A stretch of 64,000 nt of DNA from Collimonas arenae (GTDB lineage: Bacteria > Pseudomonadota > Gammaproteobacteria > Burkholderiales > Burkholderiaceae_D): NCBI RefSeq assembly GCF_000786695.1, contig NZ_CP009962.1, positions 248,001 to 312,000 of the forward strand, read 5' to 3'. The position numbers and the translations under genes were made by a program. Positions 55,306-60,348 of this stretch are shown here, piece by piece; the first letter of the stretch is position 1, and each line of letters begins with the position of its first letter. The notes under the pieces are model-generated. The model made no database searches. It saw nothing but the letters and a program-made list of their open reading frames with translations, and was not told where the DNA came from.

Positions 55306-58300
55306 CTACTCTTCCGGTGTGAAATATTGCCGCCGCTGATGCTGTTCCTGATGCATCGGGAACATGGTGGCGTAGAACTCGGTCCAGCCGCCCATCCGCA
55401 CCCGGACCAGGTTGTAGCGCTCCGGATCGTTGACCGCCGCCTGGTAGGTGGCCAGGTCGGCGCAGGTAAGGGTGATCAGGTTGGAGCCGGTTTCACCGCG
55501 CGCATAAGCTTTCACAAAGCGTTGCAACTCTTGCAGCGGAAAATCCTCCTCGATATTCATGTCGACAGGCGACGCGTTCGACAAGCCGTATTCGATCGAA
55601 TCGACGCGCCAGCTTTTGAGCGCCTGGTAGATGTTGCGGAAAGCCGGCGTCGGCGGCAGGTCTTGCGGCGCAGGGACGGGTGACAGATCGGAGGCGATCG
55701 GCATGCCGTTGCGCCGGCCGTCGGCCGATGCGCCGCAGCCGAGGCCGTCGCCGACATAGCCTTCGAAGGTGCCGATGCCTGGCGTAATCACGAACTCGGG
55801 GTTGCCGTAAGTGCTGGCGATGCCGTCCAACGCCGGTTTCAGGGCAGGGTGCGGTTTGCGTATGACGTCGACGCAAATGCGCACGGTGTTATCCATCAGC
55901 CATTTTCCCAAGGCGTCGACTTCGGCGTCGCCGCTGCCCCACTTGGGCAAAGCCAGCGCAGTCTCGCGCAGTTCCTGGTAACGGCGGCCGCGTTCCTCGG
56001 CGTCGGCCGGGCCCAGCAATTGGCTTTGATAGGGCTCGATCATGTTGAAGCCCCAATCGTTGATCAGGCAGTCGACCAGTTCTGGCAATGTAGTGACGGC
56101 GGTGGCCGGATCGAACACCAGTTTCTGGATCGCATACAGCGAATCGATAGTGTTGGAGATACCGACGCATAGCGGCGCGATCATGTTGAAGCGAGCGCCG
56201 CCGGCAGTCAGGTCGCGGCCGGATTCGGCACAGCCCTCGATCACCGCCGACAGCAGCGGGCTGGGGCAGATATCGGCCAGGTTGCCGAAGCCGCCCAAGA
56301 TCACGTTGTAGCTCTGGATCGTGATCCACTCCAGCTGTCGCAGGAAGATATCCTGCAATTGCTGGAAGCTGGTGATTGCAGCAACAGGCGGCGAACGGAA
56401 GGTTTGTTTGAGTCCGCGCAGATAGACCGGGCCGGCTTCGCCGTAGCAGGCGCCCTGGTTCAGGGTTTGCTCCAGCGCCGTCATCGGTGTGACGTTGTTG
56501 AAGGAGAAGCCGGTGGCGCCGGCCAGCATCGGTTCATAGCAGCCGTCAGCCGCATAATTGCGCGACCAAGCCAGCGTTACATTGCTGCCGGATGCATGCA
56601 GGGCCTGGCACAGGCGGTCATCCTGATACAGGATCGGATGCGCGCCGCCGGCCAGCAGGCATTTGGCCGCTTCGTCCATGATCGCATCGGGGATGCCGTC
56701 ATACACCCGCAGGGACAGGGTCGGCGCGTTGACCGGGATCCGCCGCGCCGCTTTCAGGCACAGCATGGTGACCGGGTTGACGCCGCCGGTCGGCGTGGCG
56801 TCGTCATTGGCGACATAACCGCCCACGGTAATTTGCTGAACCCACTGGTTGATGCCGCCGCCCTGCGGAAAGTTGCCGCCGTAACCGCAGACGGCGGTGG
56901 TGCCATAGTTGACGTAATCGGTGATCAGGCCACGATTGACGAAAGCGTTTTCACCGATCTTCAGCCACAGGCAATCGACGATTTCCTGCGCCCGTTCCGG
57001 GCCAATGTTGTCGTGCTCCAGCAAGGGCCACAGGATCTGGTCCAGCCGTCCCAGCGATGTCAGTTCGCCTACCAGGTGCAGACAACAATGGAAAGAAAAC
57101 ACCAGCTGCACGCCGTCCTGGAAGCTGAGCGGCGGCTCGGTACGCAGGTGGCGCAGGCGGGCGGCGACGTCGCGCATATTGTTGGCGTTCTCCGCCGTAC
57201 CGCAATCCCGTGCCGCGCCGGCGGCGGTTTCCGCCAGAGTCGCCCAATTGCCCAGATAGTCTTGTACGCCTTCCAGCGACAAGATCGCCGCAAGATAAAA
57301 TTCCAGCCTGCTCTTCAAGGCGCTGTCGCCGGGTTTGTCTTCCTGCAGCAGGGCAGCGGCCTGCGCCTGCTGCTGCAGTTCGGCGATCAAGCCGCCCAGG
57401 CCAAGCGTGACCAGCTTCTGGTAATGCGGCACCACGTGGCCCATGGCCGACCATTCGTTCAACTGACCCTTGAGCCAGGCCGCCACTGTTTCGTCCTCGG
57501 TCAGGTAGGGAACGACTTCCTTGCCGCGGCCCAGCGTGAAATCAGGGATCACGCCGACGATCAGTTCCTCGGGGTAGATGCGCAGCAAGCCGTTCTTGCG
57601 GGCGATCTCCGACTCCGGGCTGGACAGCAAACCGCCCAGCGTTTTGTGATTGGCCAGTGCTTTGCGCAAAGCCACCGAAGCGGTCAGCGACGGCGCCTCG
57701 GCCTGGCTCACCAGCTCCGACAAATGCGGCAGGCGCGGAAAGGGATGGCGCTTGAGCCAGCCGTCGTTCCAGTGTGAAAACGCCCGTCCCAGCAGCGCCA
57801 GCAGGCGAGGGCTGGGCGGATCGCCAGCGGCATATTTTCCTTCGCTCATCTGGTGCAGATAGTCCTGACCGTTGTAGAACATATAGCCGTTTTCGCTACG
57901 CGCTTTCCAGTGCGGGTCTTCCTGAACATCATCGATGCCGGCAGCCGGCACATTCAGTTCCTGCGCGTTCGGCACATACCAATAACTGCCGGCCACCCCT
58001 TGCACCACGCTCATCATGCGGTCGGCGGGCCGGTCCGGCATGCCGCCCATCATGTGCTTGATGATGGTTTCGAAGCGCGGTTGAGCGTTGCAGAAGGCCA
58101 CGAACATCAACCCTTTCTCACGCGCAGCGCTGCCCGCGTGCTCGCCGAACGGCAAAGCCTGGCGCAGCAGTTTCAGGTTGTCGCCATTGCTGTCGAGGAC
58201 ATGCACCCGATGGATATGTGCGTTGTGATCATGCTGCGGCAAGATGACGCCGGCGGGATTGCGACCCAGCATGGCGTCTTGCGCGTCGGGCAGCATATCG

Positions 58301-58854
58301 CCGATCGTGCTCCATTCGAACAGGAATTTCTGTGTGAAACCGTAACAGGCGCCGCGGAATTCGCCATCGACCAGAATGTCGCTGGCCAGGCTCACCGGAT
58401 CGTTCGGATTGGTGATGCCGTCAAGATAGCGGCCGCCCATCACCTTGCCGTCCGGCCGTTTGCCCAACGGCAGTATTTCGATCTGCGCCGCCAGCGCTTC
58501 CAGCCCGGGGCGTATGCTTTCCATCAGTTGCGCAGCAATGGCGGCGCTGTCGGCTTTAAGGTAAAGCAGCACATCGCCGCCGCTATCGCGCAGCTTGGGC
58601 GAACTGTCCAGCACTGTGCGCGATACCGGAATCTGGCGGTCATGCCAGCGGCCCCACAATTCCGGATCGAAAGCCGCCACCAGGCCGGCGTTTGCGGGCG
58701 ATGCCTTGGCGGCATTGGCAAGCGAGCGGACCAGGCTGAGCATTGCCTCTGCGGTAGTCTGGCTGTGGTCGCGCAGCGTGAGGGTGGCGATCTGGCCGAA
58801 TACGGCCCGGGTCAACAAGCCGTATTGCGTGTGTTTGATAGCGTCGATAAACAT
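55306..58854 (-). CDS. DyP-type peroxidase fused to a glycyl-radical-enzyme-like (PFL) domain
   Basis: A 1182-residue two-enzyme fusion. Residues 1-310 are a YfeX-like DyP haem peroxidase: RYLDGITNP (distal Asp145), AHIHRVHV (proximal His213), LKLLRQALPFGE (Arg231) and KGLMFVAFCNAQPRFETIIKHMMG. From about residue 400 to the end is a complete pyruvate-formate-lyase-like domain: PQGGGINQWVQQITVGG, ADGCYEPM with the thiyl-type Cys772 followed by Tyr-Glu as in GRE lyases and dehydratases (GCxE), YGNPEFVITPGIGTFEGYVGDGLGCGASADGRRNGMPIASD, and the C-terminal RVRMGGWTEFYATMFP, whose Gly1156 sits where the radical glycine lies (RVxGYxx). No activating radical-SAM enzyme is nearby. AAGGAT precedes the ATG at 58854; a start at 58935 is possible. 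Reaction unknown. Confidence 0.87.
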   Translation of the reverse strand: MFIDAIKHTQYGLLTRAVFGQIATLTLRDHSQTTAEAMLSLVRSLANAAKASPANAGLVAAFDPELWGRWHDRQIPVSRTVLDSSPKLRDSGGDVLLYLKADSAAIAAQLMESIRPGLEALAAQIEILPLGKRPDGKVMGGRYLDGITNPNDPVSLASDILVDGEFRGACYGFTQKFLFEWSTIGDMLPDAQDAMLGRNPAGVILPQHDHNAHIHRVHVLDSNGDNLKLLRQALPFGEHAGSAAREKGLMFVAFCNAQPRFETIIKHMMGGMPDRPADRMMSVVQGVAGSYWYVPNAQELNVPAAGIDDVQEDPHWKARSENGYMFYNGQDYLHQMSEGKYAAGDPPSPRLLALLGRAFSHWNDGWLKRHPFPRLPHLSELVSQAEAPSLTASVALRKALANHKTLGGLLSSPESEIARKNGLLRIYPEELIVGVIPDFTLGRGKEVVPYLTEDETVAAWLKGQLNEWSAMGHVVPHYQKLVTLGLGGLIAELQQQAQAAALLQEDKPGDSALKSRLEFYLAAILSLEGVQDYLGNWATLAETAAGAARDCGTAENANNMRDVAARLRHLRTEPPLSFQDGVQLVFSFHCCLHLVGELTSLGRLDQILWPLLEHDNIGPERAQEIVDCLWLKIGENAFVNRGLITDYVNYGTTAVCGYGGNFPQGGGINQWVQQITVGGYVANDDATPTGGVNPVTMLCLKAARRIPVNAPTLSLRVYDGIPDAIMDEAAKCLLAGGAHPILYQDDRLCQALHASGSNVTLAWSRNYAADGCYEPMLAGATGFSFNNVTPMTALEQTLNQGACYGEAGPVYLRGLKQTFRSPPVAAITSFQQLQDIFLRQLEWITIQSYNVILGGFGNLADICPSPLLSAVIEGCAESGRDLTAGGARFNMIAPLCVGISNTIDSLYAIQKLVFDPATAVTTLPELVDCLINDWGFNMIEPYQSQLLGPADAEERGRRYQELRETALALPKWGSGDAEVDALGKWLMDNTVRICVDVIRKPHPALKPALDGIASTYGNPEFVITPGIGTFEGYVGDGLGCGASADGRRNGMPIASDLSPVPAPQDLPPTPAFRNIYQALKSWRVDSIEYGLSNASPVDMNIEEDFPLQELQRFVKAYARGETGSNLITLTCADLATYQAAVNDPERYNLVRVRMGGWTEFYATMFPMHQEQHQRRQYFTPEE

Positions 58855-59028
58855 CTTAAGATCCTTATCTGAACGTGGCGCGAGGCCGTGGGAATGCAAT
58901 TGCCGCTGAGTGCGGGCCGGGAAGGTGGAATACATTAATATTTCTTTGTGGAAATTAATTCTATCGGAAAAATCCGCCGATTTGTCGAAATTGCGCTGTG
59001 CACGGCGCGGACGGAAACGAATCGCACA

Positions 59029-59050
59029 CGACTGTCAAATTTGACAGTCG
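59029..59050. promoter_or_regulatory. Perfect 22-bp palindrome in the divergent promoter region
   Basis: CGACTGTCAAA followed directly by its exact inverse complement, centred at 59039/59040. It lies 175 bp before the peroxidase-GRE start and 129 bp before the JmjC gene start. A gapless dyad of this quality between divergent genes is most simply a dimeric repressor or activator site. It does not match the FNR/ANR box (TTGAT-N4-ATCAA). The factor is unknown. Confidence 0.65.
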
Positions 59051-59178: not shown

Positions 59179-60348
59179 ATGAAAAAGCTGGGAATGGCCG
59201 ACCTGATACATCCGCTGGCGCTGGATACGTTCATGGCGCGTTACTGGCAAAAAAAGCCTTATATCGGCCACGGTTCGCCGCAACGCTTCGCCGAAATCGC
59301 CGCCATCCCTGAACTGGCCAGCATCGATGCCTTGCTCGAAGCCTGGCGCGGCGACGCCGATGCCTGGGCCCCGCGCGATACAAAAAATCCGCTGATCAAC
59401 GCCACCGCGAAGCAACTGCCGGCATTCTATGAAAGCGGCTACACGCTCTACCTGAGCAAGGTCGAAGAACATGTTCCCGCGCTGGAACCGATTGCACGCA
59501 AGCTTGAGCGCGATCTCGGCCTGCGCGAGGAGGATGTTTATTTCGAAGCCTTCATTTCGCAAGGCACCGGTTCCGGTTTTCACTTCGATCCCAACGTCAC
59601 CATCAACATACAACTGATCGGCAGCAAGCAATGGTGCGTCGCCGAGAACAAGCATCTGGTCAATCCGCATGTGGGCTGGTCCGCCGGCACCACGGTCAAC
59701 GAACACATGAAACGCTATGCGCGCCAGCCGTTCCCGACACGCATGCCGCCCGGCTGCAAACGCTTCGAGGCACGGCCCGGCACGCTGGTCTACCTGCATC
59801 CCGGTTACTGGCATTGCACCCTTAATCACGAACCGTCGCTGTCCTTGCTGTTCACCATCAACCCGCCGTCGTGGACAGATTTGCTGATGAATGAAATCAG
59901 GGACCTGATGCTCAAGCACGATGCTGGCCGCGAACTGGCCTTTGGCCTTGGCTCCACCGCTGACCATGAACAAAAGCGGCAGCGTCTGCAGCATTTGATT
60001 GATGCGGCGGGAGAGGCAGTGTCAGAACTTTCGGCTAGCGCCTTACTGGCCGACTGGGGCGGTGCGCTGACGGCTTCGTTTGAACGTAATCCGCAGATTG
60101 CATTCCATATCGATGGCGGCGTGGCCGGCGATGACGACGTGCTGGTCGTAAAGACCGGTCGCAAGCATGAACGCAGCGTGCTCGCAAAGGACGCATGGCA
60201 AGTGCTGAAGTGGATAGGCGCGCGGAAAAAATCTTTCCACGGCCATCAGGTGGCGGAGGCAACAGGCGCCGTGCCGGTCGCGCGGGTAGCCGAGATCCTG
60301 GAGGAATTTGTCGAGACCGGTTTGATCTTGCGCAATGGCGGACTGTGA
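59179..60348 (+). CDS. JmjC/cupin-type Fe(II)- and 2-oxoglutarate-dependent oxygenase
   Basis: A 389-residue protein of the bacterial JmjC (PF08007-like, ribosomal-oxygenase type) family. The metal triad is His135 and Asp137 in GSGFHFDPNVTINIQLIGSKQW with His212 in YLHPGYWHCTLN. The N-terminus LDTFMARYWQKKPYIGHG and the C-terminal winged-helix-like part (LKWIGARKKSFHGHQVAEATGAVPVARVAEILEEFVETGLI) fit the architecture of YcfD-like protein hydroxylases. It would hydroxylate a protein or peptide side chain using oxygen. GGGAG precedes the ATG. It diverges from the peroxidase-GRE gene and probably shares its control; whether it acts on that protein is speculation. Confidence 0.83.
   Translation: MKKLGMADLIHPLALDTFMARYWQKKPYIGHGSPQRFAEIAAIPELASIDALLEAWRGDADAWAPRDTKNPLINATAKQLPAFYESGYTLYLSKVEEHVPALEPIARKLERDLGLREEDVYFEAFISQGTGSGFHFDPNVTINIQLIGSKQWCVAENKHLVNPHVGWSAGTTVNEHMKRYARQPFPTRMPPGCKRFEARPGTLVYLHPGYWHCTLNHEPSLSLLFTINPPSWTDLLMNEIRDLMLKHDAGRELAFGLGSTADHEQKRQRLQHLIDAAGEAVSELSASALLADWGGALTASFERNPQIAFHIDGGVAGDDDVLVVKTGRKHERSVLAKDAWQVLKWIGARKKSFHGHQVAEATGAVPVARVAEILEEFVETGLILRNGGL

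Follow-up and report, generated by a model that had tools for sequence, protein, structure and literature searches.

The window analysed here, a stretch of 64,000 nucleotides of the Collimonas arenae genome (contig NZ_CP009962.1, positions 248,001 to 312,000), encodes a protein in which a DyP-type haem peroxidase is joined to a complete glycyl radical enzyme (GRE) domain. GREs are regarded as anaerobic and dependent on S-adenosylmethionine (SAM). In this family the two domains are complete and co-inherited, the radical-type residues are invariant, and no recognisable activase was found in 12 genomes that carry the fusion. We propose a GRE subfamily in which the in-chain haem peroxidase replaces the radical-SAM activase, a reading for which we see about an even chance. 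A shade less probable is the fuller proposal that aerobic bacteria and fungi, and perhaps an animal too, possess a SAM-independent, peroxide-activated glycyl/thiyl-radical enzyme whose barrel radical is made in cis by haem compound I.

The first-pass annotation of this DNA placed one uninterrupted frame at the position given in Table 1, and both the position and the frame stand; it left out the strand, which is the minus. The 1182-residue frame contains no internal stop. An additional in-frame ATG at 58935 would give 1209 residues, and the start methionine of the 1182-residue version coincides with that of a Collimonas protein of equal length (P0001 from locus L019, 91% identical). Among the matches listed, the closest named relative is from Collimonas humicola (91% identity). 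More than 150 full-length fusions, 39–91% identical to the window protein, were found, and all eight fusion loci L012–L019 translate through without a stop; eight shorter records (<1000 residues) map onto parts of the window protein, and natural splits are possible among them. A frameshift between the domains, which the annotation had named as fatal to its claim, or an assembly join is ruled out by the full-length fusions, the stop-free loci and the congruent DyP and GRE trees described below.

Pfam assigns residues 143–297 to Dyp_perox_C (PF20628; 2e-20, score 73.6 against a cut-off of 20) and residues 462–994 to the PFL-like family (PF02901; 3e-97). The DyP fold is present in residues 7–302 and the GRE barrel fold spans the whole length of its domain. 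Together with the residue conservation, these assignments confirm that two complete domains are joined. No NCBIfam model reaches its cut-off with the window protein: the DyP model TIGR01413 scores just below (98.4 versus 100.5) and the best GRE model, the broad PFL2-3 subfamily, gives 175 bits against 678. The GRE-like barrel thus belongs to none of the types that this library names.

Residue conservation was counted over 162 full-length rows that were not selected by motif, namely the window protein and 161 of the 169 proteins found (at least 1000 residues; 8 of the 169 records were dropped as shorter, as were 6 of 120 in a smaller set). The protein matches represent the best 120 of 310 and the best 120 of 595. 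A 170-row set adds eight locus rows admitted by the motif DGC[YF]E, which do not enter the 162-row counts; the own frame of one locus, L017, reads AADGCYEPM. Cys772 and Glu774 are present in 162/162 rows and Gly1156 in 161/162, the sole gap being P0109, a record named partial; R1151, R1153, G1155 and W1157 are likewise each kept in 161/162. When the window protein is aligned by phmmer with 1r8w, a B12-independent glycerol dehydratase, C772, E774 and G1156 fall on positions 433, 435 and 763 (correspondences counted by hand). A Glu two residues beyond the catalytic Cys is typical of the dehydratase/lyase groups of GREs. Chain positions 433 and 763 we take to be the radical residues of that enzyme. 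The catalytic-type Cys772 and the loop glycine Gly1156 were correctly picked out in the annotation. The glycine loop is best given as R1153-M-G-G1156-W and occupies the place of RVAGY in 1r8w. His164 of 1r8w is kept as H473, and Glu597 and Leu598 oppose its His281 and Ser282; given this replacement, a diol would not be expected as the substrate.

Positions conserved in at least 99% of rows number 112: the barrel contributes 97, the DyP domain 13 and the linker 2. The rows compared reach down to about 42% identity and take in 49 fungal records and the starfish record. The barrel is not a remnant, since 97 of the 112 positions fall within it; a degenerate GRE remnant, the other outcome that the annotation had feared, is ruled out by the conservation of Cys772, Glu774 and Gly1156 over the 162 rows. 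Within loop 640–670, which is longer than in 1r8w, R641, D646, G651, Q664, G665 and Q670 are each kept in at least 99% of rows. The three haem-site residues picked out in the annotation do lie in the DyP domain and are well kept (Table 1); haem binding and peroxidase activity are predicted. At the place of the near-invariant Trp181, the genome's two stand-alone DyPs carry Met and Leu, and W362, W366, W671 and W934 are likewise near-invariant in the 170-row alignment.

Predicted structures of the window protein and of a second member both gave a predicted template modelling score (pTM) of 0.91; the two predictions used alignments with common sequences and are not independent. Because this score was reached despite a split into 300 and 840 residues, the models suggest that the DyP and GRE domains are docked in a fixed arrangement. 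Loop 640–670 has a low predicted local distance difference test (pLDDT) score in both models, and the glycine loop is of low confidence in the model of the window protein and confident in that of the second member.

The search for other proteins of the same architecture returned the family in both bacteria and fungi. Holders include at least Collimonas, Janthinobacterium, Massilia, Andreprevotia, Chromobacterium, Paracidovorax, Azohydromonas and Pseudomonas cichorii, as well as at least 49 fungal records, Bacteroidota, Lewinella, Chloroflexota, Longimicrobium, Archangium, Rhodobacter, Thermoanaerobaculia and the starfish Patiria miniata; several of these records are metagenome-assembled. The gene is rare: with the window's genome included, a match at E≤1e-100 was seen in 4 of 399 genomes sampled from the order, one of the four being a broken fragment, and a match at E≤1e-40 in 2/398 of the phylum and 6/392 of the family. 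The DyP and GRE trees, built with 162 of the 170 rows (a different set from the 162 rows of the conservation counts), are congruent, with a patristic r of 0.94 that is expected for one old fusion and that the relatedness of the rows inflates. Midpoint rooting splits the tree into two deep clades. All 47 fungal rows kept fall in the first, together with 14 labelled proteobacterial rows; the second takes in the starfish, the labelled rows from other phyla and three further proteobacterial rows (L021, L079 and P0156). We take the fungal status of rows from record names and taxonomy. Proteobacterial rows nest among fungal ones, not vice versa, with weak supports (0.39 and 0.70). Transfer from proteobacteria to ascomycetes has been proposed, according to the accessible part of a 2016 article on Chaetomium cochliodes (PMC5041501); the nesting seen here runs the other way, and because of the weak supports and many unlabelled metagenome rows we leave the direction open. 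In the starfish record, P0169, the DyP-GRE is intact and carries DGCYEP and RVRTGGW; it may stem from gene transfer into an animal or from contamination.

That no activase gene lies in the window had been noted before; within the reach of profiles, this absence extends to the whole genome and to 11 further fusion genomes. The search elsewhere in the genome (5.64 Mb, two contigs) gave a best score of 19.7 bits with the GRE activase model TIGR02494. A PF04055 scan of the same genome (G000) yielded 12 radical-SAM genes, none of which looks like an activase by profiles and motifs. Ten of them were profiled. Seven pass the cut-offs of named non-activase families (MoaA, MiaB, LipA, HemN, HemW, BioB and RlmN) and one more that of PA0069; L074 (SPASM peptide-maturase-like) and L076 (B12-binding radical-SAM) pass no curated cut-off. 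The remaining two presumably correspond to RimO and QueE, which they resemble by motif and sequence. Family scans of L067 and L074 covered the best 25 of 48 and the best 25 of 64 families, and L070 lay outside the radical-SAM family scan. L074 (G000:C1:5482868-5483299) resembles a quinohemoprotein amine dehydrogenase maturase at a score under that model's cut-off. A dedicated radical-SAM activase, which is a feature of a GRE system and not of the protein itself, was thus not found among the genes of this genome.

Fifteen distinct bacterial fusion genomes were scanned, with G379/G400, G934/G406 and G971/G399 each merged by identical coordinates. TIGR02494 gave no match at E≤1e-10 in any of the 12 that have no known stand-alone GRE, and the YjjW-activase profile reached at most 36.1 bits in them. 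G379, G402 and G235, the last with a broken fusion fragment, each have a stand-alone GRE with an adjoining activase; the fragment in G235 (locus L022) is a remnant matching query residues 877–1181 at 77% identity with two in-frame TGA codons. The yardstick was a set of 39 genomes from the order that possess a stand-alone GRE: 37 have a TIGR02494 match of at least 122 bits, in every case near the GRE and on its contig. Of the 51 genomes scanned, 18 exceed the curated cut-off of 174 bits, and the remaining matches were counted by score and position. The difference between the 12 fusion genomes and the 39 genomes with a stand-alone GRE gives a Fisher p of 6e-10, or 9e-5 once collapsed to 6 fusion lineages versus 19/21 genera. 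PF13353 has matches in 17/17 genomes scanned; in G000, the genome in which they were identified by position, these are L074 and MoaA (L067).

Invariant radical-type residues in genomes lacking an activase call for another oxidant, and the fused haem peroxidase is the obvious one. Among the roles considered in the annotation were protection of the radical domain by the peroxidase and generation of the radical without SAM. The absence of an activase over 12 genomes favours a radical made without SAM over a DyP domain that merely protects an ordinary GRE, a preference drawn from genome data. In the scheme that we infer, the DyP domain would be loaded with haem, and H2O2 or another peroxide would act as the trigger, oxidising the haem to the ferryl/compound I state. 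The hole would then cross the docked interface, perhaps through conserved tryptophans (Trp181, W362, W366, W671 and W934 are candidates for the relay), to the buried Gly1156/Cys772 pair, and a Cys772 thiyl radical would initiate the reaction of a substrate that the barrel binds. The soil bacteria and filamentous fungi that host the fusion are, we assume, largely aerobic. Peroxide induction of the C. cochliodes fusion gene, which rises 18.5-fold with peroxyacetic acid and 3-fold with H2O2 in the accessible part of that study (PMC5041501), fits a peroxide-driven mechanism.

Several observations weigh against a radical made by the peroxidase. The yardstick misses two genomes, G030 (a fragmentary GRE, 470 contigs, 46.9 bits) and G145 (nothing at 1e-10), so absence in such a scan is not proof, and an activase that has diverged far could be overlooked, chiefly outside G000. 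The absence of a stand-alone GRE was checked in 8 of the 12 fusion genomes, with G640, G876, G967 and G960 outside that check. Six of the 12 activase-free genomes belong to one family, and Massilia presumably makes a seventh by taxonomy. Because glycyl radicals are O2-labile, aerobic hosts would be unlikely to keep a stable one unless it were newly formed. The conserved barrel tryptophans may be structural, and a metagenome record, P0166, has intact GRE residues with Asp145 changed to His and Arg231 to Pro. A putative PFL activase has also been described in C. cochliodes, on contig 00230 and 81% identical to CHGG_03160 (PMC5041501, in its accessible part).

The protein could instead be an ordinary GRE, activated in trans by an unrecognised radical-SAM protein in low-oxygen niches, with the DyP domain removing peroxide to protect it. 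It is established that a peroxidase does not remove O2, the chief threat to a glycyl radical, and this arrangement would require an activase where 12/12 other fusion genomes have no match and the 12 radical-SAM genes of G000 resemble other families. We consider it unlikely, while giving it some weight: all GRE residues are conserved, the HemN gene means that some oxygen-independent chemistry exists in the window's genome, and in G379, G402 and G235 the fusion or its remnant stands alongside a canonical GRE with an activase. The activase named in the fungus, as far as the text of PMC5041501 is available, points the same way.

Slightly less probable again is a barrel that works without any radical, either as a pocket that binds substrate or product while the DyP domain does the chemistry, or through two-electron thiol chemistry of the cysteine with peroxide. 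A scaffold of this kind has no evident use for a Gly1156 kept in 161/162 rows, with the neighbouring R, G and W just as constant, or for a Cys-x-Glu kept in 162/162; the barrel, moreover, holds 97 of the 112 highly conserved positions. The missing activase in the 12 fusion genomes and the presumably largely aerobic hosts are compatible with it, as is the departure of RMGGW from RVAGY. The loop's low confidence in the window protein model would also suit it, but the same loop is confident in the second model. Peroxide induction in the fungus (PMC5041501, accessible part) is a further point in its favour. That two unrelated genes were brought together by chance, recently or in assembly is scarcely credible: the patchy distribution in order, phylum and family could be read that way, but the same architecture in more than 150 bacterial and fungal proteins and the congruent domain trees already refute it.

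The closest GREs to the barrel are the B12-independent glycerol/1,2-propanediol dehydratases and PflD-type enzymes (1r8w, 9rco, 5i2g and 8yjo). Compared with these, the fusion has a DyP domain in front, the longer loop 640–670, RMGGW in place of RVAGY and no partner activase in the 12 fusion genomes, and its substrate probably differs, since Glu597/Leu598 face His281/Ser282 of 1r8w. With DyPs of the YfeX, KpDyP, VcDyP and DtpB kind it shares the fold, the proximal His and the distal Arg and Asp; it differs from them in its near-invariant Trp181 and its GRE partner. Its motif GRYLDG is, by alignment, one residue longer than GxxDG, which we take to be the DyP motif.

The architecture is real and conserved but not unseen: a 'DyP-PFL' protein of C. 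cochliodes with the same architecture as the window protein, its DyP termed type B and its function then unknown, has been in print since 2016 (PMC5041501, in the part available). We take it to belong to the same family, since the window protein has Chaetomium matches at 64 and 62% (P0046 and P0055). The available text of PMC5041501 cites Strittmatter 2014 for other DyP-PFL cases and expects a SAM activase; neither family-wide conservation of catalytic residues nor a bacterial activase survey was found in it. PMC5033417, in its accessible part, describes a DyP gene and states no fusion. Among the papers listed in the literature searches, PMC5041501 was the one article on the fusion, and other studies of it may exist. 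As far as this literature shows, four points are new: the radical-type residues are conserved across phyla, the absence of activases has been counted, the two domains are co-inherited, and a starfish record carries the fusion.

Table 1. Positions in the window of the fusion gene, its domains and key residues, and a nearby palindrome.
Feature	Position	Strand	Remarks
DyP-GRE fusion gene	55306..58854	minus	single open frame, 1182 aa
DyP-type haem peroxidase domain, residues 7-302	57949..58836	minus	
Interdomain linker, residues 303-340	57835..57948	minus	conserved W316, N322, N328
Glycyl-radical-enzyme (PFL-like) domain, residues 341-1180	55315..57834	minus	
Distal Asp145	58420..58422	minus	D in 155/162 (E 4, N 1, H 1, gap 1)
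Trp181, putative radical relay residue	58312..58314	minus	W in 168/170 rows, 8 of them motif-selected
Proximal haem-ligand His213	58216..58218	minus	161/162 (1 gap)
Distal Arg231	58162..58164	minus	161/162 (1 Pro)
Loop 640-670	56845..56937	minus	longer than in 1r8w; low pLDDT
Cys772-Tyr-Glu774, catalytic-type Cys and Cys-x-Glu	56533..56541	minus	C and E each 162/162
Glycine loop R1151-V-R-M-G-G1156-W1157	55384..55404	minus	Gly1156 161/162
Perfect 20-bp palindrome GACTGTCAAATTTGACAGTC	59030..59049		between the fusion gene and the divergent JmjC-type gene, about 180 bp upstream of the former

The gene neighbourhood is not conserved over nine loci (the window and L012–L019) and gives no pointer to the substrate. 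Among these, the window shares its downstream major facilitator superfamily gene and its upstream JmjC-type gene with Collimonas humicola alone. The latter, a JmjC_2 cupin gene at 59179-60348, is divergent from the fusion, and its product is presumably of a possible ribosomal-oxygenase type. In 3/9 loci a secreted-looking RHxExxP protein is encoded directly downstream of the fusion (L013:13539-14849, L015:13634-14890 and L016:5116-6360); it has no Pfam match at 1e-5, and we assume it to be histidine-phosphatase-like. An inverted-repeat search listed none; the palindrome was recognised in the sequence itself and located by pattern. Its 14-bp core occurs in 5 of 94 loci, all of them fusion loci of the genus Collimonas (L001, which is the window, L019, L080, L081 and L082, with L019 and L082 apparently one genome), and in none of the remaining 89; in L019 the change in the outer pair preserves the symmetry. 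The palindrome is a candidate operator, and its assignment to the fusion gene is putative. Elsewhere in the window, a C4 antisense RNA and an isrK-type small RNA (Rfam) adjoin at 362-549 on the minus strand, which suggests phage-derived DNA.

If a peroxidase-made radical does operate in this family, a precedent is class I ribonucleotide reductase, in which an oxidant made at a metal site yields the active-site thiyl radical (PMC8463856, in its accessible part). There too a separate metal site makes the oxidant for a barrel cysteine in aerobes, and the fusion would stand to ordinary GREs roughly as the aerobic class I reductase stands to the glycyl-radical class III enzyme. The fusion is not a member of that class: it would use haem and peroxide in place of a separate metal/radical subunit, it is joined in cis, and it has a glycine loop. 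The parallel makes the mechanism chemically reasonable and proves nothing. The mechanism, if true, would be new: it would add to radical SAM and the cofactors of ribonucleotide reductases another means of loading a radical onto this fold, and it would link the logic of the aerobic class I reductase with anaerobic GRE chemistry. Whether haem and peroxide can drive a GRE fold is directly testable with this family, which would, if they do, offer an oxygen-compatible biocatalyst for C-H radical chemistry.

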